Positions 41,204 through 54,819 of a DNA stretch of 64,000 bases are shown here, piece by piece. Position numbers and translations under genes: made by a program. The stretch covers positions 248,001-312,000 of the forward strand of contig NZ_LGHT01000044.1 of the NCBI RefSeq assembly GCF_001202035.1, given 5' to 3'. The first letter of the stretch is position 1. Each line of letters begins with the position of its first letter. The notes under the pieces were generated by a model. It had not been told where the DNA came from. It did not search any database and was given only the letters and a program-made list of their open reading frames with translations. The stretch comes from Pseudorhodobacter wandonensis (lineage in GTDB: Bacteria; Pseudomonadota; Alphaproteobacteria; Rhodobacterales; Rhodobacteraceae).

Positions 41204-42193
41204 TTAGTCAGCGTTACGGATCATGTTGACCAGATCGGTCAGCGCTGGATTGTCAGCAATGAACTTGTCGTAAACTGGTGCCATTGCCGCCTGGAAGGGT
41301 GCTTTGTCGGCAATCGTGTTCACTTCGGTGCCGCCAGCTTTTACTTTTTCCATGCTGGCCGCTTCACGTGCCTGCCACAGCTCACGCTGCAACAAGGCGC
41401 TTGCGTGACCGGCGTCTTTCACGATGGTCTGCTGCTCAGGTGTCAGCTTGTCCCATGTCGCTTTGCTCATGCACAGGCACTCGGGGATGATCAGGTGCTC
41501 GGTCAAGGAATAGTACTTGGCCACTTCAAAGTGGTTGGTCGACTCGTAGGATGGCGGGTTGTTTTCCGCACCGTCCACAACGCCGGTCTTGATCGACTGA
41601 TACACTTCACCAAAGGCCATTGGTGTCGCGTTGCCTTTCATGGCCTCAACCATCATCACGAACAAATCGTTGCTCATCACGCGGATTTTCAGGCCTTTCA
41701 CGTCGTCAGGCGTGTTGATCGGGTGCTGCGAGTTGTAGAAAGAGCGCGCGCCGGCATCATACCAACCCAATGGCACCATGCCCTTGGCGATCATGCCTTC
41801 GCCGATCTTCTCACCAACTTCGCCATCCATCAGCTTGTACATCTGCGGGATGCTTTTAAAGATGAAAGGCAAGGAAACCACGTTGGTTTCAGGAATTGCC
41901 TGACCCATTGGCCCAAGGCTGAATTCACCGAAATCGATCGCGCCAAGACGAACTTGCTCAATCGCATCCGGCTGGTCGCCCAAAACGCCGTTGTTATAGA
42001 TTTTGCCAGTGATCGCGCCGCCAGTTTTCTCGGTCACTTCCTTCATGAACGATTCCATCGCGATCGAAACCGGATAGTCGTCAACGTGGATGTTCCAGCC
42101 ACGCAAGTCGGTTGCACCCGATGCAGTCGCAACAAGGCTGACACCCAGCGCCGCACCTGCTGCTACTGCATTGATCTTTTTAAAAAACGTCAT
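41204..42193 (-). CDS. TRAP transporter solute-binding protein (DctP)
   Basis: A 329-residue periplasmic protein with a signal peptide (MTFFKKINAVAAGAALGVSL, then ATASG). The conserved arginine that binds the carboxylate of the ligand is in VKGLKIRVMSND, and GEVYQSIKTGVVDGAENNP is typical. The ligand is an organic or sugar acid that cannot be named from sequence. The start at 42193 is supported by GGGAGG eight bases upstream. A TTGACA-type inverted repeat 110-130 bases upstream is the likely promoter/operator. Confidence 0.93.
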   Translation of the reverse strand: MTFFKKINAVAAGAALGVSLVATASGATDLRGWNIHVDDYPVSIAMESFMKEVTEKTGGAITGKIYNNGVLGDQPDAIEQVRLGAIDFGEFSLGPMGQAIPETNVVSLPFIFKSIPQMYKLMDGEVGEKIGEGMIAKGMVPLGWYDAGARSFYNSQHPINTPDDVKGLKIRVMSNDLFVMMVEAMKGNATPMAFGEVYQSIKTGVVDGAENNPPSYESTNHFEVAKYYSLTEHLIIPECLCMSKATWDKLTPEQQTIVKDAGHASALLQRELWQAREAASMEKVKAGGTEVNTIADKAPFQAAMAPVYDKFIADNPALTDLVNMIRNAD

Positions 42194-42306
42194 ACGATCC
42201 TCCCAGATCTTCTGTGTTCTATGTCTCTCGATTGCCCGGCGAACCTCGTTTTGGGTTTGTTGCCGCGGGAATCGATCCCCATCCTCGAGTATGCTAGTAT
42301 GCCAGA

Positions 42307-42323
42307 TTGACAAGTATTGTCAA
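42307..42323 (-). promoter_or_regulatory. Inverted repeat TTGACA-N5-TGTCAA before the first TRAP operon
   Basis: A perfect palindrome that on the minus strand also supplies a TTGACA -35 element, with CATACT 16 bases on as a -10. A regulator bound here would cover the promoter. A degenerate version (TTGGTC-N5-TGTCAA, 45420-45436) sits upstream of the second TRAP operon. Confidence 0.5.
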
Positions 42324-42430
42324 ATAACGAATTTCCGTAGCGGCTATTTTTGTATGTTTGCGCTGTTCAAACAGCCTAGTGGCGGAATTCTGCGCCGTAT
42401 AGACTTGATTGCGCTCTGGCCCAAAAAACT

Positions 42431-42454
42431 CTGTGGCACCCGAAGGTGCCACAG
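42431..42454 (-). terminator. Intrinsic terminator after the second TRAP operon
   Basis: CTGTGGCACC (42431-42440) pairs perfectly with GGTGCCACAG (42445-42454) around a four-base loop that is UUCG on the minus strand, followed by AGTTTTTT. A textbook terminator starting seven bases after the dctM stop. Confidence 0.9.
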
Positions 42455-42460
42455 GCCGTC

Positions 42461-43771
42461 TTAGCGGAATGATCCGGGCATCAGCAGTTTCGGTAACCAC
42501 AATACGATCTCGGGGAATATGATAATTAGCAGCAATATCAGCAGCATGGGAATCAAGATGATCACCACGTCCCGCATGACCTGCATCACATTCATCCCGC
42601 CAATTGCCGCCGATATCAGCAAACACAGCCCATAGGGCGGCGTCACCAATCCAAAGGCCAGTGATACAATCCCGATAATCGCAAAGCTGACAGGCTCAAT
42701 CCCCGCCGCTTGCGCGACCGGCATCAAAACCGTGCCCAAGATGATGATCGTCGGAATCGCATCGATGAACAGGCCGAAAAACAAGAACAGCGCTGCGATC
42801 AACAAGCCCGTGCCCAATGGCCCGAATTGCGTAGCCGTCATCGCAGCCACAATCAGCCGTGGCACGTTGTAAAACGACAGCATCCAACCAAAGGCCGAGG
42901 CCGTGCCAATCGCAAACAAGGAAATCGACGCGAACCGGCCTGTATCATACAAAATTGCACCCAAGTCGCGGACGCTGACGGTGCGATAGACGAACATCCC
43001 CAAAATCAGCGCATAACCTGCGGCGATAATCGCGCTTTCGGTGGGGGTCACGATACCGCCAACAATGCCGCCGATGACCAAAATCGGGGTAAACATCGCC
43101 AGCGCCGCACCCTTTAGCGCATGCCAGAATTCGGCAAACGTCGGGGTGCCGGCGGTCGGATAGTTGTAAACCTTGGCATAGCCATACACCGTTGCCATCA
43201 ACGCCAGCCCGATCAGTATCCCCGGAATGGCTCCGCCCAGAAACAGCGCGCCCACTGAAACTTGCATCACGCCGCCCCAGACGACCATCAGGATGCTGGG
43301 CGGAATGATCACCCCCATCACCGATGAACAGGCCGTAATCGCAATGGAAAAGCGGGTGTCATAGCCCTCTTTCACCATCGCAGGGATCAAAATCTTGCCG
43401 CAACCCGCAGCATCGGCCGTCGAAGACCCCGAAATCCCGGCAAACAGCATCGATACGGCCACGTTCACATGGCCCAGCCCGCCGGGCATCCACCCCGTCA
43501 GCACACGCGCCAATTCAATCAGCTTATCCGTCACCTTGCCCGAGTTCATCAGGTTCGCGGCCAGCAAAAAGAACGGCACCGCCAGCAGGATGAACGAGTT
43601 ATACGACTGAAACATCCGGTCGATGATGATAAACGGCGTGAGCCGCATATCCATCATCACAATCGGAATCGTCGCAATCCCCAATGCAAAGGCCACCGGA
43701 ACCCGAATTGCGACCAGAAAAATAAACCCGCCCACCAAAATTGAACAAGCCATAACGGTAGAAACGATCAT
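42461..43771 (-). CDS. TRAP transporter large permease (DctM)
   Basis: A 436-residue DctM-family membrane protein: FAGISGSSTADAAGCGKILI, MGVIIPPSILMVV, and FGLVTPPYGLCLLISAA. It differs clearly from the DctM encoded at 39305, so the two systems are not a recent duplication. The start overlaps the DctQ stop by four bases (ATGA). A perfect terminator follows it. Confidence 0.93.
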   Translation of the reverse strand: MIVSTVMACSILVGGFIFLVAIRVPVAFALGIATIPIVMMDMRLTPFIIIDRMFQSYNSFILLAVPFFLLAANLMNSGKVTDKLIELARVLTGWMPGGLGHVNVAVSMLFAGISGSSTADAAGCGKILIPAMVKEGYDTRFSIAITACSSVMGVIIPPSILMVVWGGVMQVSVGALFLGGAIPGILIGLALMATVYGYAKVYNYPTAGTPTFAEFWHALKGAALAMFTPILVIGGIVGGIVTPTESAIIAAGYALILGMFVYRTVSVRDLGAILYDTGRFASISLFAIGTASAFGWMLSFYNVPRLIVAAMTATQFGPLGTGLLIAALFLFFGLFIDAIPTIIILGTVLMPVAQAAGIEPVSFAIIGIVSLAFGLVTPPYGLCLLISAAIGGMNVMQVMRDVVIILIPMLLILLLIIIFPEIVLWLPKLLMPGSFR

Positions 43772-44259
43772 ACAAAATCCTCCCGCGATTTGCGGTATAT
43801 TGAAATCGCCTCATACAGCCGGTACCCCGCAAACAGGGTCCAGACCACGCCAGCAATGGGAACAGAAATAAAGGTGACCATCAGGTTGGCCCGCATCATG
43901 ACCGAGTTCTGGATGCTGCCGAACTTGGCGTATTCGATGCCGTAAAATGCAAAAAGCATCGCAAAAACCAGAATCAGCACCAGCACAACCCCGTTTTGCA
44001 GCAAAATCATCAACGGCCGTTTGGCATCGGGCGTCACGCGCACATCAAAATGAATACCATCCCAAACCGCCACCATCGACCCGATCATCACGACCCAGAC
44101 AAAGATAAAGGTCGAAAGCTCTTCGGTCCAAAGATAGGTCGGGATAATCCCCGTATACCGCGAAATCACCTGCATCGCGACGGGTATGGCCAGCGAGCCC
44201 ATCAAAATCGCCAGCAAAACGCGCAACACATTCGCAAACTTGTCCAAGACAACGCCCAT
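43768..44259 (-). CDS. TRAP transporter small permease (DctQ)
   Basis: A 163-residue, four-helix DctQ protein with VISRYTGIIPTYLWTEELST, then GSMVAVWDGIHFDV, the pattern of the family. It pairs with the downstream DctM. It is separated from its dctP by a GC hairpin with a T tract (44297-44326), as in the neighbouring TRAP operon. Confidence 0.9.
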   Translation of the reverse strand: MGVVLDKFANVLRVLLAILMGSLAIPVAMQVISRYTGIIPTYLWTEELSTFIFVWVVMIGSMVAVWDGIHFDVRVTPDAKRPLMILLQNGVVLVLILVFAMLFAFYGIEYAKFGSIQNSVMMRANLMVTFISVPIAGVVWTLFAGYRLYEAISIYRKSREDFV

Positions 44260-44296
44260 TTACGCCCCCGAAATCTAGTGCCCAAAACACGAAAAA

Positions 44297-44326
44297 ACCC
44301 CGAGGCAACCTGCGCTGCCCCGGGGT
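44297..44326 (-). terminator. Attenuator/terminator between dctP and dctQ
   Basis: On the minus strand ACCCCGGGGCA and TGCCTCGGGGT pair (10 of 11 positions), followed by TTTTTCG. Like 41160-41187, it should keep the binding protein in excess over the permeases. Confidence 0.7.
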
Positions 44327-44334
44327 ATCGGCAA

Positions 44335-45327
44335 TTACTTCGCGCGGATTGCGTTCAGCAGTTCGGTCGCGCCCAACTCGGCTGCATAGGCGTCCTGCAC
44401 GGGGACAACCATTTTCAGCATTTCGTCACGGCCTTCAAACGGGATCAGTGTGATCTGCTTGGCATCGGCCATTTCCTGACGCTTTTCGCCGTCTTCACGC
44501 GATTCCAGCTCGCGGCCAAATTCGCCTGCTTCCTTGCCGGCTTTCAGCACAGCCGCTTGCAGCGCCTCGGGCAATGCGCGGAAGGTCTTGCCGCTCATCA
44601 CGATCGGACGCACGGTGATCGCGTGCTGGGTCAGGGTCAAATACGGCGCCACTTCATAAAACTTCAGGTTCTGAATGCTGGCAGCCTCGTTTTCAAACCC
44701 TTCGATAACGCCGGTCTGGATTGCGTTATACACTTCGTTATAGGCAATCGCCGAAGGGGCCGCATGCAGGGCCGCAAAGATTTGTGCCTGAATCGGCGCA
44801 CCCATCACGCGCATCCGAAAGCCGTTCAACTCGGCCATATCCTTGATCGGCTTGGCCGAAAGGATGTTGCGCACGCCGCCACCGTTATAACCGATGATCT
44901 TGATATCGGCTTTTTCCAGCAACTCTGCCTCAAGCGGGGCCAGAACGTCGCTGGACAGAACGGCGTTCCAATGGTCCAGATCGCGGAACAGGAACGGCAT
45001 ATCCATCAACGGAATAGACGGCGAGAACACCGCCATATTCGATGGCGCGAGGATCGTGTAATCCACGGCCACGCCTTGGTTCAGATAGGTCACATAATCC
45101 GACTCTACGCCCAATTCGCCATTCAGGCGCAAATCGAACGTGACATCGCCGTCATAGTTTTCTTTCACCAGATCCGCAAATTTGCGCAGCGTTTTGGTAT
45201 AGGCATGGTTTTCGTCAAACATGCTGGCGCCGCGCAGCGTGACCTGCGCACTGGCTGTGCTTGCCAACACGCTTGTCGCCAGAACGGCGCCCGATAGCAA
45301 AGTGACGGTTTTCTTGAAAATTGACAT
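44335..45327 (-). CDS. TRAP transporter solute-binding protein (DctP)
   Basis: A 330-residue periplasmic protein with signal peptide (MSIFKKTVTLLSGAVLATSV, then ASTASA). The ligand-binding Arg is in LNGFRMRVMGAPIQ, and NEVYNAIQTGVIEGFENEAA is the usual following motif. The substrate is an unidentified carboxylate. The divergent FCD-type GntR regulator 480 bases away is the likely controller, and FCD proteins commonly sense the transported acid. Confidence 0.93.
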   Translation of the reverse strand: MSIFKKTVTLLSGAVLATSVLASTASAQVTLRGASMFDENHAYTKTLRKFADLVKENYDGDVTFDLRLNGELGVESDYVTYLNQGVAVDYTILAPSNMAVFSPSIPLMDMPFLFRDLDHWNAVLSSDVLAPLEAELLEKADIKIIGYNGGGVRNILSAKPIKDMAELNGFRMRVMGAPIQAQIFAALHAAPSAIAYNEVYNAIQTGVIEGFENEAASIQNLKFYEVAPYLTLTQHAITVRPIVMSGKTFRALPEALQAAVLKAGKEAGEFGRELESREDGEKRQEMADAKQITLIPFEGRDEMLKMVVPVQDAYAAELGATELLNAIRAK

Positions 45328-45806
45328 GGTTGTCCTCCCTAACAGCGGGCCGCTCCCAGTTGGGTGGCCCTAAACTGGCGGCATTAAGTTGTATGCAATT
45401 GTAAAGAGTCAAGGATAATTTGGTCATTTTTGTCAAATTCATTAACCTGCATGGCAAGGATTTTTGCCGAAAAACGAACGTTTGTTTTATAAAAACGGCA
45501 TAAACACCCCCTTTTCATCAAGATTTGCAAAGCAAAATATTACAAATATTGACGCATCAATTCCGTCTTGCTACCTAGTATTGGGTAGGGGGCGCAGATC
45601 AAAAATGCATCGGACAGGCAAGCAACAAGCCGCAAAGCCTTGGGCAGTCAACGGGCGGTCGTCCGCCGGATCAGACCATCCACCGCCCATGAACCGGTTG
45701 AGAAGGCCAGATTTGCGCGATATGCCCCCACAATGTTTCACCGCCGCGTTTCTCCCTTCGGCGCCAATCCTTCAACCGACCCCAAATCCATAGAGGATCT
45801 TTTGCA
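45328..45806. promoter_or_regulatory. Divergent control region, second TRAP operon and GntR gene
   Basis: A 479-base AT-richer region without a supported gene. It holds TTGGTC-N5-TGTCAA (45420-45436), which on the minus strand gives a TTGACA element, an AT-rich symmetric TTGTATGCAATTGTAA near 45392, and a CTACC/GGTAG dyad near 45571-45588. On the plus strand TTGACG near 45554 could be the -35 of the GntR promoter. Confidence 0.4.
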
Positions 45807-46544
45807 ATGGCGCCCAGCGAGCGGCACATAAAGACAGACCCGACCGCGCATGAGGCCGCACGGACCTTGGCCGACCAAGCCTATGAACAAATCCTGTCGA
45901 TGATTATTCATGGCGAAATCGCGGTTGGTGCCAAGCTGCCGACCGAACATGCGCTCAGCCAGCGCTTTGGCATGTCACGCCCCGTTCTGCGTCAGGCCCT
46001 GCAACATCTGCGCAACGATGATCTGATCGTGTCGCGTCAGGGGTCGGGCTCTTACGTCACGCGCAAACCGGATGGCGAGGTGCTGGAATTCGCGCCGATC
46101 GGCTCTATTGCCGACATCCAGCGCACCTTTGAATTTCGCGTCGCGGTTGAGGGCGAGGCCGCCTATTTCGCCGCCAAGCGTCGCAGTGATGCCGAGCTGG
46201 CCGCGATCAAGGCGGCGCTTCTGGCACTTGATGCCTGTATCGCGCAGGGCGAATTGGGCGCTGACGCGGATGAGGATTTTCACGCCGCGATTTGCGACGC
46301 TTCGGGCAATCAGTATTTCACCGCGGCGCGGCATTCGATGAAGGCCAATATCCTGACCGGCCTGAACCTGACCCGCAACCTGTCGCTGACCAAGCCCAAA
46401 GACCGCCTGCAACTGGTCCAGAAAGAGCATTACGCCATTTACAACGCCATCGCCGCAGGCGATCAGATCGCCGCGCGTGAGGCGATGCGCGCCCATATCG
46501 AAAACGCCCGCAAACGGGTTTTCGACGGCACACCGGAAAGCTGA
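45807..46544 (+). CDS. GntR-family regulator (FadR/FCD subgroup)
   Basis: A 245-residue regulator with a winged helix (YEQILSMIIHGEIAVGAKLP, LSQRFGMSRPVLRQALQHLR, RQGSGSYVT) and an FCD domain (DEDFHAAICDASGN; QKEHYAIYNAIAAGD; REAMRAHIENARKR). It is divergent from the second TRAP operon and probably controls it; a related half-site upstream of the first TRAP operon suggests it might control both. Confidence 0.9.
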   Translation: MAPSERHIKTDPTAHEAARTLADQAYEQILSMIIHGEIAVGAKLPTEHALSQRFGMSRPVLRQALQHLRNDDLIVSRQGSGSYVTRKPDGEVLEFAPIGSIADIQRTFEFRVAVEGEAAYFAAKRRSDAELAAIKAALLALDACIAQGELGADADEDFHAAICDASGNQYFTAARHSMKANILTGLNLTRNLSLTKPKDRLQLVQKEHYAIYNAIAAGDQIAAREAMRAHIENARKRVFDGTPES

Positions 46545-46666: not shown

Positions 46667-47860
46667 TTAGCGCATCATATTCCACGCCTGAAAATCAAGA
46701 CCCATCGGCCCCGCCAAGTCTTGCGCGGAATCATACACCAGCTCTAGCGCGTAATGCGGGTTATGCACGAATGCGCCTTTGTCCGAGGTCACGAATTTCC
46801 AGTTATAGGTGGCTTGCAGCAGGCGCGGTGTCCAGGCGTTATAGGCAACAGCATTGCCGTTTTGCTCATCTATGCGGCCATCGCCATTGGCATCGGCAAA
46901 GAAATAGGGAAAGCGGTGGTCATCAAACACCATCGGCACGCCCGCAACCTTGGTCGCATAGTCGATAATCAACCCCTGCAGCCGCTCTGCATTGGCGGCC
47001 AGATCGGCGCGCAACCCTTTTTTCAGATCGCCGCTGCCGTCATAGCTGATGCGCGACAGGCGGATATTGTCCAGCTTGCTATCCTCATGGCAGGTGCTGC
47101 ACGCGTCTTGTGCCACCTTCAGGCTGTGCGGTTCGTGGCAGGAAACGCAGGTTTCCACCGGCCGCGCGTGGAAAAAGCGGCCGCTATAGTCCTTATCCGG
47201 ATACTGAAACCCCGACCCGCCATAGCCGCCCAACCACGTCGCCGCCGCAACGGCATAATGCGGGTTGATGAACTTCAACTCGGGGTTCGGCGCGTCGGGC
47301 TCCAGCGTGGCAACTGCTTTGGAAATCATATTACCCGCCGCGCGACCTTGGTGGCACGTCATGCAAGATGCCTCGGCTGTGGTGGCAACGGGGTGCATCA
47401 GGCCGCTGGGGAATTTAACCTCGGTCACTTTGTTCAGGGCAGGGTTGTGGCAGGTGTCGCAATCAACCACGCCGCCAACCGGTGTGGGGCCTTTCTTTAC
47501 CCCCGGCGCGCTGCCATCCAACCCGTGAAAGCTGCGAAACCCCGCACCCGAATGGCAGGTCGCGCAAACGGGTGGAATCTCGCCCTCACTATCCCAATGC
47601 GCAAAGGCCTCGGCATGCGAATCAGAATGGCCCGACCGCGCCCAGTTTGCGATGGCCGTCTGGTTCGCGATCTTGATCTCATCGGGTTTGAACGGCCCCG
47701 AGCGCGGCTTCACAAACTGCCCCAGCTCTTGTGCGATTGCCTCAATTTCGGGCGAAGTGCCGGTGGTTTGCGCTTGGGCTGCACCAATTGCGGGCAGTAC
47801 CGCCAGTGCGAGGCCGAAAGAAACATGTATTCCAAATAAATCTTTTATTCTCAATGACAT
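46667..47860 (-). CDS. Periplasmic pentaheme cytochrome c
   Basis: A 397-residue exported protein with a signal peptide (LALAVLPAIGAAQAQ) and five C-x2-C-H haem motifs: CATCH, CDTCH, CMTCH, CVSCH, CSTCH. The motifs lie in the first two-thirds; the last third is haem-free, with a Ca-binding-like DANGDGRIDEQNG and a conserved-looking WTPRLLQATYNWKFV. The architecture resembles multihaem cytochromes of the tetrathionate-reductase/cytochrome-c-554 type, but I cannot name the subfamily. The start at 47860 has AAGGAAG upstream. It is divergent from the nqr operon with 124 bases between, so joint control and electron exchange with that complex are plausible. Confidence 0.88.
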   Translation of the reverse strand: MSLRIKDLFGIHVSFGLALAVLPAIGAAQAQTTGTSPEIEAIAQELGQFVKPRSGPFKPDEIKIANQTAIANWARSGHSDSHAEAFAHWDSEGEIPPVCATCHSGAGFRSFHGLDGSAPGVKKGPTPVGGVVDCDTCHNPALNKVTEVKFPSGLMHPVATTAEASCMTCHQGRAAGNMISKAVATLEPDAPNPELKFINPHYAVAAATWLGGYGGSGFQYPDKDYSGRFFHARPVETCVSCHEPHSLKVAQDACSTCHEDSKLDNIRLSRISYDGSGDLKKGLRADLAANAERLQGLIIDYATKVAGVPMVFDDHRFPYFFADANGDGRIDEQNGNAVAYNAWTPRLLQATYNWKFVTSDKGAFVHNPHYALELVYDSAQDLAGPMGLDFQAWNMMR

Positions 47861-47984
47861 ATATTTCTTCCTTTTTTGCAGCGGGTACACCTTCGAATAA
47901 AACTATGGTATCAGAAATGACGAAATTTCGCAACGATCTCGCCGCCGCAGCCTGTGCCGCACGGCTTTGTCAGATGGATATGTG

Positions 47985-49238
47985 ATGCGCTTTTCGCCGC
48001 TTTCTTCCGGGCTGATCTTGCCCCCCTCGGGGGCTGCCCCTGCGCAGACAACGGCCACCGAAAATCTGACCGCCGAAGCCGCGCTGACCCCCGCCCCGAA
48101 CGAAGAGCTGCGCGTCGATCTGCTGGTCGCCGAAGATGCAAAGGTGGCTCAGGGCCAGCCGGTGCTGCGCTTGCGGTCTGCGCCTGATATTGTGCTGGTG
48201 GCCCCGATGGCAGGGCGGGTCGCGCGGGTTGATCTGCGGCCCGGCCGCAGGCTGTCGCAGGTTGTGTTCTTTCAGGATGACCATTGCAACCGCCACGCCT
48301 TTGACACCAAATCCCCCGCTTTGCCTGCCTTGCTGCAGGCCTCGGGGCTGTGGCGCAGCATTTGCAGCCGCCCCTTTGGCCGCATGCCCCGCGCCACAGA
48401 ATCCCCCGCCGCGATATTTGTCATGGGCATTGATACGACCCCCGATGCCCCACCCCCATGGGCCGCCATCGCGGGCCGAGAGGATGATTTCAGCCGTGGC
48501 CTTGCCGCGCTGACCGCTTTCCCCGCCAAGCTGTTTTTGTGTGAGCCTGCGCATCAGCCATCCCCCATCCAGCCACCCGCAACCTTCACGCGCCTGCCCA
48601 TCCGTCCCATCCATCCGCAAGGTCTGGCCGGCTGGCAAATCCACCGTCATTTCCCCGCCACCCCCAGCGCCCCGGTGTGGGAAATCCACGCCGAAGATGT
48701 CGCCGATATTGGCGGGTTGCTTGCCACCGGTTATCTGCCCGCAACGCGTCTGGTCAGCCTATCTGGTGATGCTTTGCGTGCGCCCGCCATGATGCATTGT
48801 CAGAAAGGCGCCGATCTGCGCGGTCTTGGCCAATCCCTGCTGCGCCCCGGCCCGCATGAGGTGCTTTCGGGGTCAATCCTGACAGGTCTGCCCGCGCATT
48901 GGCTTGGGGTCCATGACCGGCAAGCCACATTCCCGACTCTGCGTGCCACCACCAAGCCCCCGCATTGGTTTGCTGCGGCCCTTGAACGCGCGGCCCGCCA
49001 TGCGCCAATCATCCCCTCGGCGGCGCTAGACCAATCGCTTGGCGGTGCAGTTCCCGCCGCCGCCCTCATCCGTGCCCTCGCCACCGCCGATACTGAAGGG
49101 TTCACCCGCCTTGGTGGCCTGTCGCTACTGGCCGAGGACGTCGCGCTTGCCGATTACGCCACCGGCGCACGCCCGCGCCTTGCCACCCAGTTGCGCGCCA
49201 TTCTGCACAAAATTGCCGCCGAGGAGGACGCGCTATGA
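47985..49238 (+). CDS. nqrA: Na+-NQR subunit A, divergent
   Basis: A 417-residue NqrA homologue (family about 445). Recognisable are VLVAPMAGRVARVDLRPGRR (lipoyl-like part), SGLWRSICSRPFGRMP, the HPQGLAGWQIHRHFP segment and the C-terminal RLGGLSLLAEDVALADYA. It is more divergent from Vibrio NqrA than the other subunits, and the C-terminal cysteines of Vibrio NqrA are absent. NqrA binds quinone on the cytoplasmic face. The start is uncertain: ATG 47985 or an upstream TTG at 47967. The stop overlaps nqrB (ATGA). Confidence 0.8.
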   Translation: MRFSPLSSGLILPPSGAAPAQTTATENLTAEAALTPAPNEELRVDLLVAEDAKVAQGQPVLRLRSAPDIVLVAPMAGRVARVDLRPGRRLSQVVFFQDDHCNRHAFDTKSPALPALLQASGLWRSICSRPFGRMPRATESPAAIFVMGIDTTPDAPPPWAAIAGREDDFSRGLAALTAFPAKLFLCEPAHQPSPIQPPATFTRLPIRPIHPQGLAGWQIHRHFPATPSAPVWEIHAEDVADIGGLLATGYLPATRLVSLSGDALRAPAMMHCQKGADLRGLGQSLLRPGPHEVLSGSILTGLPAHWLGVHDRQATFPTLRATTKPPHWFAAALERAARHAPIIPSAALDQSLGGAVPAAALIRALATADTEGFTRLGGLSLLAEDVALADYATGARPRLATQLRAILHKIAAEEDAL

Positions 49239-50011
49239 AACGAGGTCTTTGGGACCGCGAGATCATCGCCCTGCTGTTGCTGCTTGCCATGCTGCCGATG
49301 GTTCTGGCGTGGCTGGCCTATGGCGGGTTGGATGCCGCTGGCCGCCTTGCTTTTACCCTTATAACCTCGGGCCTCTGGCACCTTGTCTTTATGCTGGCCC
49401 GTGCGCAACCGCCCTCCTTTGCCGGTGCCGTGACCGCCATCGCCGTGGCCATGCTCGCCCCGGCCGATCTGACGCTTTGGCAACTCGTGCTTGGCATCAG
49501 CTTTGGCTCTGTCATGGCCGAGCTGGTGTTTGGCGGCTGGGGGCGCAATGTGCTGAACCCCGCCACCGTCACGCTCGCCTTCCTCGGCTTTGGTTTTCCC
49601 ACAGCCCCTTGGCATGATTTCGCGCTACCCGTGGCTTGGGCCGCCATCCCTGCACTGGCGATCGGCGCACTTTATGGTGTGATGTCATGGCGGCTGATCC
49701 TTGGGGCGCTGGCGGTGCTTGGCGTGGCACTTGCTGCCCACTTGCCCGTCACCGCAGCGCTGCCCAGCACCGCAATCGTCTTCGCCCTGCTGGTCACCGA
49801 CCCGGTCGCCAGCGCCCATACCCGCGCCGGCAGTTGGCTGAACGGTGCGCTTTTCGCCGCGCTTGTTACGCTGTTTGCCACGCAGTGGCACAGCGCCGCC
49901 CCCGCCCAAATCGCCGTTTCGGCGGCACTGCTTACCTCACTCGCAGCACCCTTGCTGGATGAGGCCGCAATCGCATTCTGGCTGTCGCGCAGGAGAAAAC
50001 GTCATGGCTAA
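49235..50011 (+). CDS. nqrB: Na+-NQR subunit B, short form without the FMN-attachment segment
   Basis: A 258-residue membrane protein of the NqrB/RnfD family; Vibrio NqrB has about 415. Residues about 65-130 align well (LTLWQLVLGISFGSVMAELV, FGGWGRNVLNPATVTLAFLG) and so does the end (LLVTDPVASAHTRAGSWLNG). The N-terminal roughly 110 residues are reduced. The segment after the NPA motif that in Vibrio carries DGYSGAT, with the flavinylated Thr236, is missing, with sequence resuming at the next helix. So no covalent FMN site is visible. It overlaps nqrC by eight bases. Confidence 0.85.
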   Translation: MKRGLWDREIIALLLLLAMLPMVLAWLAYGGLDAAGRLAFTLITSGLWHLVFMLARAQPPSFAGAVTAIAVAMLAPADLTLWQLVLGISFGSVMAELVFGGWGRNVLNPATVTLAFLGFGFPTAPWHDFALPVAWAAIPALAIGALYGVMSWRLILGALAVLGVALAAHLPVTAALPSTAIVFALLVTDPVASAHTRAGSWLNGALFAALVTLFATQWHSAAPAQIAVSAALLTSLAAPLLDEAAIAFWLSRRRKRHG

Positions 50012-50801
50012 CCTGAACCCCTTTGCCGCGTGGCGCCGCCTTTTGGCCCTGCCGAATGAAAGCCGCACCAAAACGGTTGCCATCGCTTTCCTCGTATCGG
50101 CCATATGCGCGCTGTTTGTCAGCGGTGCCACGGTCGTCTTGCGGCCCATCCAAACGGCCAACCGCGCGGCCGAGCAACAGGCGCGGCTGGAAACCCTGAT
50201 CGCAGGTATCCCCGGCATGTCCGACCTTCTGGCCCAATCGGGGGGCACACTGTCCACCGTGGTGATCGACCTTACCAAAGGCGCAGTTGCCGAAATTGCC
50301 CCCGCCGACCTGACCACAGCGCTGCAAGACAGCAGCAACTGGACCGGCCTGACCGCTGCCCAAGATACCGCAGGCCTTGGCCAGCGCCCTAACTTCGCGC
50401 AGGTCTATTTCCTGCGCGGGCCGGATGGCAACCTGTCACTTGCCCTGCTGCCAATCACGGGTGACGGTTATAACGGCCCGATTGATGCCATTCTGGCCCT
50501 GCGTGCAGATACGCAAACCATCGCAGGCCTTGCTATCACCAACCAGTCCGAAACCCCCGGCCTTGGCGCGCGGATCGAAGAACCCGCGTGGCTGTCGCAA
50601 TTCGGCGGCAAAACCGCGCTTGATGCCAGCGGCGCGCCGCGCTTTGCCGTCGCCAAAGGCACCGCAGGCAGCGAATATGAGGTGGACGGCATCACCGGTG
50701 CCACCCGCACCTCAAACGCGATCACCCGCATCATGCGGTTCTGGCTGGGGGATGACGGCTACGGCCCGCTGCTGGCCGCAATCCGGCGGGGGGCGTTTTA
50801 G
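50004..50801 (+). CDS. nqrC: Na+-NQR subunit C, flavoprotein
   Basis: A 265-residue protein with one N-terminal membrane helix (VAIAFLVSAICALFVSGATV) and a periplasmic FMN-binding domain. The flavinylation motif DGITGATRTS is intact, giving FMN on Thr234 attached by the ApbE encoded downstream. SETPGLGARIEEPAWLSQF is the other family signature. In NQR the periplasmic NqrC flavin receives electrons from the NqrD/E iron centre and passes them to NqrB, whose flavin site is missing here. Confidence 0.92.
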   Translation: MANLNPFAAWRRLLALPNESRTKTVAIAFLVSAICALFVSGATVVLRPIQTANRAAEQQARLETLIAGIPGMSDLLAQSGGTLSTVVIDLTKGAVAEIAPADLTTALQDSSNWTGLTAAQDTAGLGQRPNFAQVYFLRGPDGNLSLALLPITGDGYNGPIDAILALRADTQTIAGLAITNQSETPGLGARIEEPAWLSQFGGKTALDASGAPRFAVAKGTAGSEYEVDGITGATRTSNAITRIMRFWLGDDGYGPLLAAIRRGAF

Positions 50802-50804
50802 GTC

Positions 50805-51470
50805 ATGCCCGCAAGCCCCAGCCTTTGGCAGGTTCTTACCGCCCCGCTAATCCGGCAAAATCCGGTTACGCTGCAAATCCTTGGCATTTGTTCGGCGCTG
50901 GCAGTCACCACCTCAATGGCGACTGCGCTGACCATGTCGGCAGCGCTGACAGCAACGCTTGTGATGTCGGCGGGCACGATCAGCCTGATCCGCCGCCATA
51001 TCCCCGATAGCATCCGCCTGATCGTGCAAATCGTCATTGTCGCGTCATTGGTGATTGTAATCGATCAGGTCTTGCAGGCCTATTTGTTCGACATCAGCCA
51101 GAAACTATCAGTTTTTGTCAGCCTGATCACCACTAACTGCCTTGTGCTGGGGCGCACGGAATCCTTTTCGCGCCACAACCCGCCCCTGCGATCTATGGTC
51201 GATGCGCTGGGCAACGGGCTGGGCTATTCGCTGGTGCTAACGGTGATTGGCGCGGTGCGCGAATTTTTCGGGGCAGGGGCCTTGCTGGGTTGGCAAGTGC
51301 TGCCAACAATTGACCAAGGCGGCTGGTACACGCCGCTAAACCTGATGCTGCTGGCACCTTCGGCGTTTTTCCTGCTGGGCGGCTTGGTTTGGGCCATACG
51401 CACAGCGTTACCCGATCAGTCCGAGCCGCTGGAATACCTCGCCCCCGATGCACAGGGGGGCAAGGAATGA
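50805..51470 (+). CDS. nqrD: Na+-NQR subunit D
   Basis: A 221-residue, six-helix membrane protein. The iron-ligand cysteines of the NqrD/E pair are present ([12 protein letters not shown] and [14 protein letters not shown]). It forms the pseudo-symmetric membrane core with NqrE that carries electrons across the membrane. It starts four bases after nqrC and ends overlapping nqrE. Confidence 0.94.
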
Positions 51471-52075
51471 CCGAGCTTTGGGCGCTGTTCTTGCGCGCCG
51501 CTTTCGTCGAAAACATGCCGCTGACGTTTTTTCTGGGGCTGTGCACCTTTATCGCACTGTCGCGCAAAACCGCACCGGCGCTGGGCCTTGGCATCGCGAT
51601 GGTCGCGGTAATGGGCGTCACCGTGCCACTGAACCATCTGATCTATACCACCCTGCTGGCCCCCGGTGCATGGGCTTGGGCGGGTTTGGATGCTGACCTG
51701 TCCTATCTGAAACTGATCGCCTTTATCGGCGTCATCGCTGCCACGGTGCAGCTGTTGGAAATGGTGCTGGATCGGTTTTTCCCCGCAATTTACGCCTCAT
51801 TCGGGGTGTTCTTGCCGCTGCTGACGGTGCAATGCGCCATTCTGGCAGGCAGCCTGTTTATGGTAGATCGTGACTATACGCTTGCCCAATCCACCGTATT
51901 CGGCCTTGGCGCAGGTTTTGGCTTTGCGGTCGCGGTGGTCATGCTTGGTGCCATTCGCGCGCGGCTGGTCTATGCCGATCTGCCCCAACGGCTGCGGGGG
52001 CTTGGCATCACCTTTATCCTTGCGGGTATGATGTCGCTTGGCTTTTCCGCCTTTGCGCAAATGGTGGCATCATGA
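51467..52075 (+). CDS. nqrE: Na+-NQR subunit E
   Basis: A 202-residue, six-helix protein homologous to NqrD, with its two conserved cysteines ([12 protein letters not shown] and [12 protein letters not shown]). The ATGA overlaps on both sides couple it to nqrD and nqrF. The start at 51467 matches family N-termini ([20 protein letters not shown]). Confidence 0.94.
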
Positions 52076-53292
52076 CCGAAATCCTGCTTGGCGCCTGCAT
52101 CATCACTGGCCTTATCCTCGCCCTAACGCTTGCCTTGCTTGCCACGCGTCGCAGGCTGATCCCCTCGGGTGCGATGGTCGTTACCGTGAACGGCAGCGAA
52201 ACCATCACCGCCGCGCGGGGTGATAAATTGCTGGGCGTGTTGCATGGGGCCAGTATCGGCATTCCGGCGGCCTGCGGTGGCTCTGGCACTTGCGGGCTCT
52301 GCCGTGTGGTGGTGACGGGTGAGGGCGCGGGCCAACCGATTGCCACCGAAAAGGCGGTGCTATCGGCGGCCGAGCGTAAAGCAAACATCCGTCTCGCCTG
52401 CCAAACCACCTTGCGCGGGCCTTGTGCTGTTACGGTGCCAGCGGCGTTTCTGGGGGCAACCGGTTTTGAATGCACCGTGGTATCCAACCGCCAGCTTGCC
52501 CCTTTAATCCGAGAGCTGGTTCTGGACCTGCCAGCAGACCAACCTTTTGATTTCCGCGCCGGCGGGTTTTTGCAACTGACCGCGCCGCCCTATACCTTGG
52601 ATTTCCGCCAGATCGATATCGACCCCGCCTTTCTCGCCATTTGGCAACAGGCCGATTGGCCCGGCCTGCGGTCGGCTTCAACCAGTGCCGTGACCCGTGC
52701 CTATTCCATCGCCAACAGACCCGCCGACAAAGGCCGCGCCGTGTTCAACATCCGCCTCGCCGTGCCGCCCGCAGGGGCCGAGCATAGCCTGCCGCCGGGC
52801 GTGGTGTCGTCCTGGCTGTTTGCGCTGAAAGCCGGCGATAGGGTTACAGCCTCTGGCCCCTTTGGCGATTTCCATGTTCAACCCACAACGCGCGAGATGG
52901 TCTTTATCGGCGGCGGCGTGGGCATGGCCCCCCTGCGCGCGATGATCCATGAACAGATCGGCATAAACACCCCCCGCAAGATGCGCTTTTTCTACGGGGC
53001 CCGCACCGCCGCTGACCTGTTTTATGTCGATGAATTCACAGCCATCGCGCAGCAAAACCCCGGTTTCACCTTTACCCCCGCGCTGTCCGACCCCGCCCCC
53101 GGCGACCGCTGGCAGGGCGAGACCGGCTTTATCCACGATACCGTCCGCGCCGCGCTGCAAAACCACCCCGCGCCCGAGGAGTGCGAGTATTACCTCTGCG
53201 GCCCCCCCGTCATGATCTCTGCCGTGCTGCATATGCTGGCGAAACTGGGGGTCGAACCGCAGTCCATCTTTAACGACGATTTCGGAGGCTGA
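52072..53292 (+). CDS. nqrF: Na+-NQR subunit F, NADH-oxidising FAD/2Fe-2S protein
   Basis: A 406-residue protein: N-terminal membrane helix, plant-type ferredoxin domain with cluster ligands Cys68, Cys74, Cys77 and Cys110 ([13 protein letters not shown]…RLACQT), and a ferredoxin-NADP-reductase-like domain with the FAD motif RAYSIAN and NADH-binding [13 protein letters not shown] and YLCGPPVM. All cofactors needed for NADH oxidation seem retained, so the entry side of the complex looks functional. Confidence 0.95.
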
Positions 53293-53296
53293 CCCG

Positions 53297-54253
53297 ATGC
53301 CCTTTCACCCCACCCGCCGCCAGATGATCGCCCTAACCGGTGCCACGCTGCTGACAGGCCCCAGCCGCGCCGCAAGCCCCACGCAAACCCTGCAGGGCCG
53401 CGCTTTTGCCAGCGCGTGGCGCATCACCAGTCAGACCGATGCTGAACGCCATCGCCCCGCCATCGACGCGCTGCTTGCCCAGATTGACCGGCAAATGTCG
53501 CCATGGCGGGATGACAGCGAAATCACCCGCTTTAACACCGCCCCCTACGACGCGCCCGCCTCACCGCAACTGACCACTGTCGCCCAAGCCGCCCTGACCC
53601 TTGCGCAATCCAGTAACGGCTGGTTTGACCCCAGCGTTGGCCCGCTCGTGGCGCAATGGGGCTTTGGCCCGATCACGGGCGCGGCCAATGGGTGGCAAGG
53701 GCTTGCGGCTACAGACACCGCTTTGCACAAAACCAGCCCAACCCTGACGATGGACCTGTGCGGCATCGCCAAAGGCTACGCGCTTGACCGCATGGCCGCG
53801 CATTTGCAAGACGCAGGTCTGCAATCTTTCCTGATCGACCTTGGGGGCGAGCTTGCAGCGCTGGGCCAACACCACTCGGGCCGCGATTGGCATGTCGCCA
53901 TTGAAGATCCGCGCCCAACCCAAAACGCCCCCGCTGCGGCCTTGCGCTTGCCCACAGGCCTGTCGGTGGCAACCTCAGGGCTGCGGGCGCAAAGCTATGG
54001 CTTGGGTGGCCGCGATTATGGCCATATCATCAACCCGCATTCCGCCCAGCCCGCAACCGGCACGCTTGCCTCGGTCTCGGTGCTGCATAGCAGCGCGATG
54101 CTGGCCGATGGTTGGGCCACCGCCCTTGCCGCAGCCGAAGAATCCGCGCCGCAACTTGCCACGGCAAACGGCATCACCGCGCTGTTTCTGTTCACAACAC
54201 AGGCAGGGTTGCACATGCAAACCACCGGCGGCTTTGACCGCCACTTGCTTTAG
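53297..54253 (+). CDS. apbE: FAD:protein FMN transferase
   Basis: A 318-residue exported protein with a twin-arginine-like start (PTRRQMIALTGATLL). ApbE features are MSPWRDDSEITRFN, FDPSVGPLVAQWGF, LDLCGIAKGYALDRM-type sequence and SVLHSSAMLADGWATALAA near the metal site. It attaches FMN to the threonine of NqrC; NqrB has no visible acceptor here. It follows nqrF by four bases. Confidence 0.93.
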   Translation: MPFHPTRRQMIALTGATLLTGPSRAASPTQTLQGRAFASAWRITSQTDAERHRPAIDALLAQIDRQMSPWRDDSEITRFNTAPYDAPASPQLTTVAQAALTLAQSSNGWFDPSVGPLVAQWGFGPITGAANGWQGLAATDTALHKTSPTLTMDLCGIAKGYALDRMAAHLQDAGLQSFLIDLGGELAALGQHHSGRDWHVAIEDPRPTQNAPAAALRLPTGLSVATSGLRAQSYGLGGRDYGHIINPHSAQPATGTLASVSVLHSSAMLADGWATALAAAEESAPQLATANGITALFLFTTQAGLHMQTTGGFDRHLL

Positions 54254-54265
54254 GGGTCGCGAGAA

Positions 54266-54430
54266 ATGGAAATCCTGCTCGCCCTCGGCATCATCCTTCT
54301 CGCCGTCCTTGGCCTTGCGCTTGGTACGCTATTCGGGCGCGGGCCTGTCAAAGGGTCGTGCGGCGGTATGGCCTGCCTGAAAGACATCGCCTGCGAAGGC
54401 TGCCCCAATCGCAAAGGCCCCCAGCCATGA
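54266..54430 (+). CDS. nqrM: (Na+)-NQR maturation protein NqrM
   Basis: A 54-residue protein with one membrane helix (ILLALGIILLAVLGLALGTL) and a four-cysteine tail (SCGGMACLKDIACEGCPN). This is the DUF539/NqrM pattern; NqrM is needed to insert the iron centre between NqrD and NqrE. Its presence argues that the membrane iron site of this atypical complex is assembled. It starts 12 bases after apbE and overlaps the CBS-domain gene by four. Confidence 0.9.
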   Translation: MEILLALGIILLAVLGLALGTLFGRGPVKGSCGGMACLKDIACEGCPNRKGPQP

Positions 54431-54819
54431 CCGCGCAAACCCTGCACTCCCTGTTGCAAACCAATACGCCCAGCCTGACGCCAGACATGCCGATCCGCCG
54501 CGCCGTGGCCTTGCTGGTACAACACAATCTGCCTGCCGCCGCCGTGCTGGATGATAGCGGCGCATTGCGCGGCATCCTTAGCCAGAAAGACTGTTTTCGC
54601 CCTGCGCTGAACGCCAGCTATTATCAGGAATGGAAAGGCACGGTTGCCGATTACATGACCGAAAACCCCACCACCCTTGCCGCCAGCAGCGATATTCTGA
54701 CCGCCGCGCAGGCCTTTCAAACCTATCCCTACCGCGTGTTTCCGGTGCTCGAGGGCGAACGGTTTTTGGGCCTGCTTACCCGCACGGCTGTGCTGAAACG
54801 GCTGGTTGAACAGGGTTAA
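54427..54819 (+). CDS. CBS-domain protein
   Basis: A 130-residue cytoplasmic protein consisting of two CBS motifs (LTPDMPIRRAVALLVQHNLP…VLDDSGALRGILSQKD; then ADYMTENPTTLAA…VFPVLEGERFLGLLTRTAVL). CBS pairs bind adenine nucleotides and report energy charge. It is last in the nqr operon with an ATGA overlap. A link to NQR as an energy-sensing accessory is inference. It converges with the GNAT gene, sharing four bases. Confidence 0.9.
   Translation: MTAQTLHSLLQTNTPSLTPDMPIRRAVALLVQHNLPAAAVLDDSGALRGILSQKDCFRPALNASYYQEWKGTVADYMTENPTTLAASSDILTAAQAFQTYPYRVFPVLEGERFLGLLTRTAVLKRLVEQG

Follow-up and report, generated by a model that had tools for sequence, protein, structure and literature searches.

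A short-form Na+-NQR operon beside a divergent pentahaem cytochrome c gene in Pseudorhodobacter wandonensis: a candidate NADH:periplasmic cytochrome c oxidoreductase

It is established for the Vibrio NQR that electrons pass from NADH through NqrF and the NqrD/E cluster to the FMN of NqrC. In an ordinary NQR a swing of NqrC towards NqrB follows, and the electron moves over a second covalent FMN and riboflavin to quinone. The locus described here raised the question of where the electron would go when NqrB is shortened and a multihaem cytochrome is encoded next to the operon. It was located in a 64,000-nucleotide stretch of the Pseudorhodobacter wandonensis genome, which we call the window. An earlier note on this DNA described an nqrABCDEF-apbE-nqrM operon ending in a CBS-domain gene, and coordinates and Pfam matches placed every gene where the note had it. 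Most neighbours overlapped; gaps separated nqrC from nqrD (3 bp), nqrF from apbE (4 bp) and apbE from nqrM (12 bp). The divergent gene with five CxxCH motifs, 124 bp away, was likewise borne out by coordinates and motif positions. The features were the following:

46667..47860, minus strand: pentahaem cytochrome c gene; 397 aa, signal-like N-terminus by eye, five CxxCH motifs and five further invariant His (Pfam, structure model, Foldseek)
47861..47984, no strand: divergent intergenic region, 124 bp between the cytochrome and nqrA starts
47985..49238, plus strand: nqrA; 417 aa, reduced by about 26 residues relative to normal NqrA in the region facing the NqrB N-terminus
49235..50011, plus strand: nqrB, short form; 258 aa, N-terminal arm and segment with the FMN-bearing Thr both missing
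50004..50801, plus strand: nqrC; FMN-binding domain with attachment motif TGAT
50805..51470, plus strand: nqrD; both Cys of the membrane [2Fe-2S] cluster present
51467..52075, plus strand: nqrE; both Cys of the membrane [2Fe-2S] cluster present
52072..53292, plus strand: nqrF; NADH/FAD/[2Fe-2S] input subunit
53297..54253, plus strand: apbE; FAD:protein FMN transferase
54266..54430, plus strand: nqrM; NQR maturation protein, four Cys, three of them invariant in relatives possessing nqrM
54427..54819, plus strand: CBS-domain gene; 130 aa, last in the operon

The window encoded the full Na+-NQR set of NqrA to NqrF with ApbE and NqrM. A second NQR or Rnf was absent from the genome, its two PF02508 matches both being at this locus, and RnfB and RnfC with their Fe-S clusters were not found there, NqrF and NqrA standing in their place. 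Among the 37 short operons, a CBS-domain relative was present in 36 and nqrM was undetected in three. There was no Rfam match between 42000 and 58000 and no tRNA across the window.

The half of the complex leading from NADH to NqrC was retained. The FAD, NADH and 2Fe-2S sites of NqrF, the four Cys of NqrD/E and the FMN threonine of NqrC were all present, and these ligands were invariant across the short operons, save for gaps in one frameshifted row (L095). Since L095 had no separate NqrC frame, the NqrC counts in the more distant subgroup were out of 17. NqrD, NqrE and NqrF scored above their NCBIfam equivalog cut-offs, and NqrC was just under that of TIGR01938 (141.3 vs 144 bits).

The shortening of NqrB and the divergence of NqrA, both remarked on earlier, were confirmed, with both proteins of the window far below their equivalog cut-offs. 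NqrB was missing the 44-residue segment that holds the FMN-bearing threonine (Thr236, GAT motif); this motif was found in none of the 37 short operons vs all 59 normal NqrB. The quinone-pocket positions G140, N156 and E157 were altered in 37/37 short NqrB, F159 in 36/37 and G141 in 27/37. Changes at G140/G141 disrupted the interaction with ubiquinone in Vibrio (PMC4014512). The N-terminal arm, or cap, was missing from short NqrB, and the NqrA region facing the NqrB N-terminus was reduced in all 37 operons; the equivalent region of V. cholerae NqrA includes a part intertwined with that N-terminus (PMC9325719). Judged from the sequences, the ubiquinone site of the Na+-NQR would be lacking in short NqrB, with residues replaced, the arm absent and the NqrA region shortened. 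The riboflavin ligands N200 and N203 had a different fate in the two subgroups. In the window's subgroup N200 was kept in 19/19, N203 in 14/19 and D346 in 19/19, the window's NqrB itself retaining those corresponding to N200 and D346. In the distant subgroup N200 was changed in 15/18 and N203 in 14/18, and D346 was kept in 17/18, which brought D346 to 36/37 overall. Were the return path dead, N200, N203 and D346 would not have to be kept in this way, which counts against such a loss. One NqrB alignment (A2) left out L095.

Short NqrB was present in 35 of the 292 genomes of the order, the window's genome included. The earlier note had proposed a survey for the cytochrome gene beside such operons and would have taken its absence beside most of them as a refutation; the gene proved instead to adjoin short NqrB in 34 of the 35 genomes, across 23 genera (32 intact, the rest damaged copies), vs none of the 59 normal-NQR genomes. 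A scan of contigs with NqrB yielded two loci, and the arrangement was found on two named contigs (L064, L065) and four named plasmids. Because it recurred with an intact cytochrome in 32/35 genomes, two contigs and four plasmids, it was neither chance nor an assembly fault. Five plasmid records held the cytochrome, and four of them also had the short NQR (two Rhodobacterales, two Hyphomicrobiales). Cytochrome profile matches in wider draws, which overlap, numbered 2/385 genomes of the class and 6/349 of the phylum, and all fell in the window's own family. In unrooted trees, in which the long rows L095, L098, L099 and L120 were unsafely placed, short NQR lay on one side of a branch and nine normal NqrF on the other. 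Rank correlations between the cytochrome and five subunits in their distances were 0.54-0.87, to which, with shared ancestry uncorrected, we gave no weight. In two genomes the partnership did not appear in full: G251 had a short NQR and no cytochrome was found there, and G289 had a truncated copy only. A pentahaem gene adjoining one normal NQR (L113) belonged to the NapC/NirT family and was unrelated to the locus cytochrome. We found no description of a short NQR with this cytochrome in open-licence PMC papers.

The cytochrome had its CxxCH motifs at residues 99, 134, 166, 238 and 254. All 43 aligned rows (omitting L084, truncated; L095, in two frames; and L086, with none) possessed the five motifs and exactly five other invariant His. 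These ten invariant putative haem ligands suggested a bis-His electron carrier.

On these grounds we considered it likely that the complex is an NADH:periplasmic cytochrome c oxidoreductase, namely an NQR with its return path dismantled, mainly NADH-oxidising and probably still Na+-coupled. NADH would be oxidised at NqrF (FAD, 2Fe-2S), and the electron would cross the membrane via the NqrD/E [2Fe-2S] cluster, arriving on the periplasmic side at the FMN bound covalently to NqrC. As the NqrB FMN site was gone and the quinone-pocket residues were replaced, the electron would most likely leave NqrC for the cytochrome of the divergent gene, whose haems are apparently bis-His and which might dock at the former position of the NqrB FMN segment. 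Export of Na+ through NqrB/D/E would probably be kept. The oxidoreductase would work beside an ordinary complex I, whose 49-kDa subunit was detected in 43 of the 44 genomes carrying the cytochrome or the short NQR.

It was unlikely that quinone was still reduced, with the FMN of NqrC docking on the riboflavin of the trimmed NqrB, a rebuilt quinone site, and the cytochrome as a side branch. The changed pocket residues, the lost cap, the 34/35 co-occurrence and the persistence of operons with a changed N200 in the distant subgroup all spoke against this, although the riboflavin ligands N200 and D346 still present in the window's subgroup, the retention of NqrA and NqrB at all and the existence of G251 would fit it. 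So would the contact between an FMN protein and a noncovalent flavin proposed for two-subunit Nqr/Rnf-like complexes (PMC11334425). The earlier note had left open whether exchange between NADH and periplasmic cytochrome via NqrC occurs instead of quinone reduction or besides it. The exchange itself gained genomic support from the co-occurrence and the lost FMN site; since that site was removed and the pocket residues were replaced, "instead" was favoured and "besides" less so.

The cytochrome might also act as a terminal reductase in the periplasm that receives its electrons from the complex. Its best Foldseek neighbours were OcwA (E 0.0099, TM about 0.4) and the nitrite reductase NrfA (E 0.17), both weak matches of a haem-free model, and a Pfam cytochrome c552 match fell below the cut-off (18.3 vs 24.1 bits). 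However, no CxxCK haem motif was found in it, and five extra invariant His for five haems left no obvious open haem, which made the reductase improbable in comparison with a carrier taking electrons from NqrC.

In all nine genomes with the cytochrome but no NqrB match (one scanned), the gene adjoined a divergent flavocytochrome-like gene of ferric-reductase type. These flavocytochrome-linked cytochromes lay on one side of a branch in an unrooted tree, which does not give the age order of the two partners. A possible, indirect pointer to Na+ transport was a Na+/H+ exchanger gene, which stood beside 16/37 short operons, vs 0/9 flavocytochrome loci and 0/9 normal-NQR loci; the other 21, the window among them, had no adjoining exchanger in the stretches examined.

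Upstream of the cytochrome we searched for an FNR-type box as TTGAY-N4-RTCAA (site form as in PMC5398030). Of the distant-subgroup loci whose cytochrome is complete, 12/15 had it, as did 2/9 flavocytochrome loci, at a distance of 45-71 bp from the start of the cytochrome gene; the density elsewhere in these 24 loci gave an expectation of 0.07. Exact boxes also occurred in 2/4 plasmid short-NQR loci and in a Defluviimonas plasmid. In the window's subgroup the exact box was found in 0/19 loci and a box with one mismatch in 8/19. In the window itself, the 300 bp preceding the cytochrome start contained no such box even when one mismatch was allowed; a reading in terms of low-oxygen control therefore concerns the relatives. 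When six intergenic regions were aligned, no clear footprint emerged.

For metabolic context the 44 carriers (35 with short NQR plus the nine) were compared with 36 of the 248 other genomes, hand-picked at roughly even steps. NapA was over the cut-off in 4/44 carriers vs 6/36 others, a photosynthetic reaction centre was present in 26/44 vs 14/36 (p 0.12), and SoxB was over the cut-off in 32/44 vs 17/36 (p 0.02, with relatedness and three tests uncorrected; 33 carriers with inclusion of the G291 gene, which lies in two pieces on two contigs). The window's genome had SoxB; a reaction centre and a NapA over the cut-off were both absent. None of the three comparisons fixed the direction of electron flow.

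Reverse flow, in which the cytochrome would take electrons from a periplasmic donor of low potential and the Na+ gradient would push them via NqrC to NAD+, would find a precedent in the sister pump RNF, which runs in reverse (PMC12174285), and the somewhat commoner soxB in carriers would be in line with it. On the other hand, one ion per electron was estimated to lift an electron by only about 0.2 V, so a high-potential donor would not do. Moreover, the other partner of the cytochrome belongs to a type that carries electrons from NAD(P)H to the outside, and the low-oxygen-type boxes of many relatives fit electron disposal. We judged reverse flow quite improbable and favoured the NADH-oxidising direction, on indirect grounds.

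That the cytochrome is a mere co-inherited neighbour serving another chain, as the Desulfovibrio dhcA precedent and the exceptions G251 and G289 might suggest, was very improbable given its co-occurrence over 23 genera vs no normal-NQR genome, its position in nine genomes next to a different NAD(P)H-to-outside module, and the fact that the short operons have lost the other way out for electrons.

A bolder version of the oxidoreductase reading was held tentatively, as somewhat less than an even chance. A naturally quinone-blind NQR without NqrB-FMN would pump Na+ and, going round complex I, quinone and bc1, deliver electrons from NADH to a pentahaem cytochrome with bis-His haems that is dedicated to this role. 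That cytochrome would then be a general periplasmic socket for the family's NADH-to-outside modules (the NQR variant, the ferric-reductase flavocytochrome and perhaps PepSY/DUF2271 systems). The redox step that drives Na+ transport in NQR is still debated, one model being reduction of NqrB-FMN; in the proposal of Hau et al. the Na+ channel is opened by NqrB-FMN once this is reduced (PMC10643135), and Na+ coupling may accordingly be lost in the short NQR. With the NqrB flavin site and the quinone-pocket residues missing and the front half kept, the short NQR is a natural test of the coupling step. Should it pump Na+, the coupling step would have to precede NqrB-FMN and be placed at the NqrD/E cluster and the NqrC swing; should it not pump, the model based on NqrB-FMN would be strengthened.

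Compared with the ordinary Na+-NQR, the locus had the same six subunits, ApbE and NqrM and the same route from NADH over FAD, 2Fe-2S and the NqrD/E cluster to the NqrC FMN. It differed in the missing covalent NqrB FMN site, the replaced quinone-pocket residues, the trimmed NqrA/NqrB interface and the cytochrome partner. OcwA and NrfA showed a weak fold likeness to the cytochrome model, whereas the locus cytochrome had five CxxCH motifs, all apparently bis-His, and no CxxCK. In Desulfovibrio, the decahaem DhcA is also a multihaem cytochrome of an rnf locus, but the system is Rnf and dhcA is the first gene of the same operon; co-transcribed with rnf, it was unimportant for fitness where Rnf mattered (PMC4215793). 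The two-subunit Nqr/Rnf-like complexes share an NqrB-like subunit without the flavinylation site, and they have been proposed to pass electrons from NAD(P)H to external acceptors in one direction only (PMC8238504, PMC11334425); they consist of an NqrB-NAD-domain fusion and an FMN protein only, whereas the locus kept all six pump subunits. The Rnf-MmcA system of Methanosarcina acetivorans is likewise a pump of the same superfamily working with a multihaem c-type cytochrome (PMC11024163, PMC12174285), but it is archaeal, its pump is Rnf and its cytochrome is a heptahaem protein related to OTR. If our reading is true, a periplasmic-cytochrome exit would be added to NQR, as MmcA is for Rnf.

The earlier note had placed an nqr operon and a divergent cytochrome c gene at the positions listed here, and gene calls and Pfam searches of the window bore this out.

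46667-47860, minus strand: pentahaem cytochrome c gene
47985-54819, plus strand: nqrABCDEF-apbE-nqrM operon with a terminal CBS gene

The start codons of the cytochrome gene and nqrA were 124 bp apart. Named relatives such as Paracoccus seriniphilus suggest that the host probably belongs to Rhodobacteraceae/Paracoccaceae. A PF02508 search of the whole host genome (3.89 Mb, 45 contigs) gave two matches, both in this operon, and revealed no second NQR or Rnf; the 49-kDa subunit of complex I was present. At 41204-46544, beside the cytochrome gene, lay genes for a GntR/FCD regulator and for TRAP transporter proteins (DctP twice, DctQ and DctM), which were not among the neighbours conserved in relatives.

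We searched 292 genomes of the order with the window NqrB, and 94 of them matched. Loci were fetched from the 34 genomes that matched over nearly the full NqrB length, the window being the 35th; with the named contigs L064 and L065 this gave 37 operons with a short NqrB. Of the other 59 genomes, all with a normal NqrB, nine had their loci fetched as well, and the other 50 were later covered for the NqrB region. The window NqrB aligned with the solved V. cholerae NqrB at 135-219, and the alignment resumed past the FMN region. The 63 residues of the Vibrio 219-287 interval were reduced to 18-20 in all 35 genomes and both contigs. All of these had likewise lost the GAT motif, which includes the FMN threonine, whereas 59/59 normal NqrB proteins contained it; a regular-expression match in L095 was discounted because the frame continued into NqrC sequence. 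The N-terminal arm ahead of the first helix was gone as well. The structural model of the window NqrB had a pLDDT of 92.5 and matched Vibrio NqrB at a TM of ~0.8 by query length.

The positions of G140, N156 and E157 were substituted in 37/37 short NqrB proteins, that of F159 in 36/37 and that of G141 in 27/37. Roles in quinone or inhibitor binding are described for these five positions (PMC9325719, PMC10643135, PMC4014512). Two defining features of NQR, the NqrB FMN site and the ubiquinone-site residues, were thus tested and found to be lost or replaced, so the window enzyme is an NQR variant rather than a strict member. NqrA was also shortened: its anchor-to-anchor length was 112-113 residues in nine normal proteins, compared with 85-87 in the window's subgroup and 74-89 in a distant subgroup. 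In Vibrio, this region is described as including a part intertwined with the NqrB N-terminus (PMC9325719). The NqrA and the NqrB side of this interface were shortened together.

The 37 short operons were split into the window's subgroup (n=19, NqrB at least 53% identical to that of the window) and the distant subgroup (n=18, 28-38% identical for the 17 aligned). Of the riboflavin ligands, N200, N203 and D346 were retained in 19/19, 14/19 and 19/19 members of the former, while in the latter N200 was altered in 15/18, N203 was altered in 14/18 and D346 was retained in 17/18. In an unrooted NqrF tree, all 37 fell on one side of a branch separating them from nine normal proteins (support 100/100).

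The front part of the enzyme was preserved. The short rows all retained the Cys pairs of NqrD and NqrE and the NqrC FMN threonine (36/36 for the latter), and also the FAD, NADH and Fe-S residues examined in NqrF, except for three Cys in the frameshifted L095. Among the 37 short operons, apbE was detected in all (as a 64-residue fragment only in L079, 2815-3006), nqrM in 34 and the CBS gene in 36. In Nitratireductor, apbE was annotated as two genes (L119, 5432-6408). The stretches fetched around normal NQR genes likewise contained a CBS-gene relative at 7/9 loci (L109-L112, L114, L116, L117); it was missing in L113 and L115.

In 32/35 short-NqrB genomes, the five-haem gene was intact and ran divergently from nqrA. 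In G023 it was split over two frames, several nqr genes there being broken too; in G289 it was truncated (L084, 8306-8632) and followed by an unrelated gene; and in G251 no cytochrome was found beside the operon (L086, 8613-8683) or elsewhere in the genome. Among the 59 normal-NQR genomes, the window cytochrome had no match (E 1e-5), and a cytochrome profile gave two marginal local matches only (E 2e-4 and 6e-4, in frames of 657-670 residues). Intact or damaged, the cytochrome thus occurred in 34/35 short versus 0/59 normal genomes (Fisher p 8e-25, with genomes treated as independent despite shared ancestry). Since 43 aligned cytochromes shared five CxxCH motifs and exactly five other invariant His (78, 201, 231, 245, 366), the simplest reading is that each would carry five bis-His haems. 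The nearest matches to its AlphaFold2 model (pLDDT 83.5, without haems) were OcwA (E 0.0099) and NrfA (E 0.17), both weak.

The cytochrome also had other partners. In nine of the 292 genomes (L100-L108) it occurred without an NqrB match (E 1e-5), and its divergent neighbour was in 9/9 an open frame of 493-572 residues with an FAD/NAD part matching NqrF. Five of these frames were read, and the one scanned contained Ferric_reduct, FAD_binding_8 and NAD_binding_1. The nine flavocytochrome-linked cytochromes formed one side of a branch in an unrooted tree (support 100/99). In a single, looser case, a Defluviimonas plasmid (L120, 9917-19015), the cytochrome lay near a PepSY_TM-flavodoxin-NAD protein, DUF2271 and ApbE, with a two-component system between. 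Judging from their families, the NQR variant, ferric-reductase-type and PepSY/DUF2271 modules would all be expected to pass electrons from NAD(P)H to the outside. In a single case, a Pseudooceanicola algae plasmid (L122, 14531-20016), the pentahaem cytochrome was followed, one gene away, by a cytochrome c oxidase operon.

A Na+/H+ exchanger gene (PF00999; one member scanned) adjoined 16/37 short operons. In 12 of these it came immediately after the cytochrome and on its strand, in two it came after the cytochrome on the opposite strand, and in two it lay at the CBS end. The exchanger gene was found at 0/9 flavocytochrome and 0/9 normal loci (13-kb stretches, apart from one of 12 kb and one of 6 kb), giving p 0.018 against the flavocytochrome loci and 0.0005 against the 18 pooled. 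The window operon had no such neighbour. FNR-type boxes preceded the cytochrome at 12/15 distant-subgroup loci, and none was found upstream of that in the window.

Because the second half of the NQR path lacks its covalent flavin and quinone-pocket residues and the cytochrome gene is adjacent, delivery from NqrC requires the least assumption, and NqrC is most likely the electron donor to the cytochrome. The first half of the path terminates at NqrC on the periplasmic side, where electrons would be handed to the apparently bis-His cytochrome encoded next door. As the potential given for NAD (-320 mV; PMC12174285) lies inside the range given for one cytochrome of this kind, MmcA (-100 to -450 mV; PMC11024163), NADH oxidation by the higher-potential haems is feasible, and the flavocytochrome partner likewise points to outward electron flow. 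The complex I 49-kDa subunit was encoded in 43/44 genomes with short NQR and/or the cytochrome, so NADH:quinone reduction need not rely on the short NQR.

Searches of open-licence PMC papers found no comparable system. The closest published ideas are the pairing of MmcA and Rnf and the two-subunit Nqr/Rnf-like complexes, in which the flavin site of NqrB is likewise missing.
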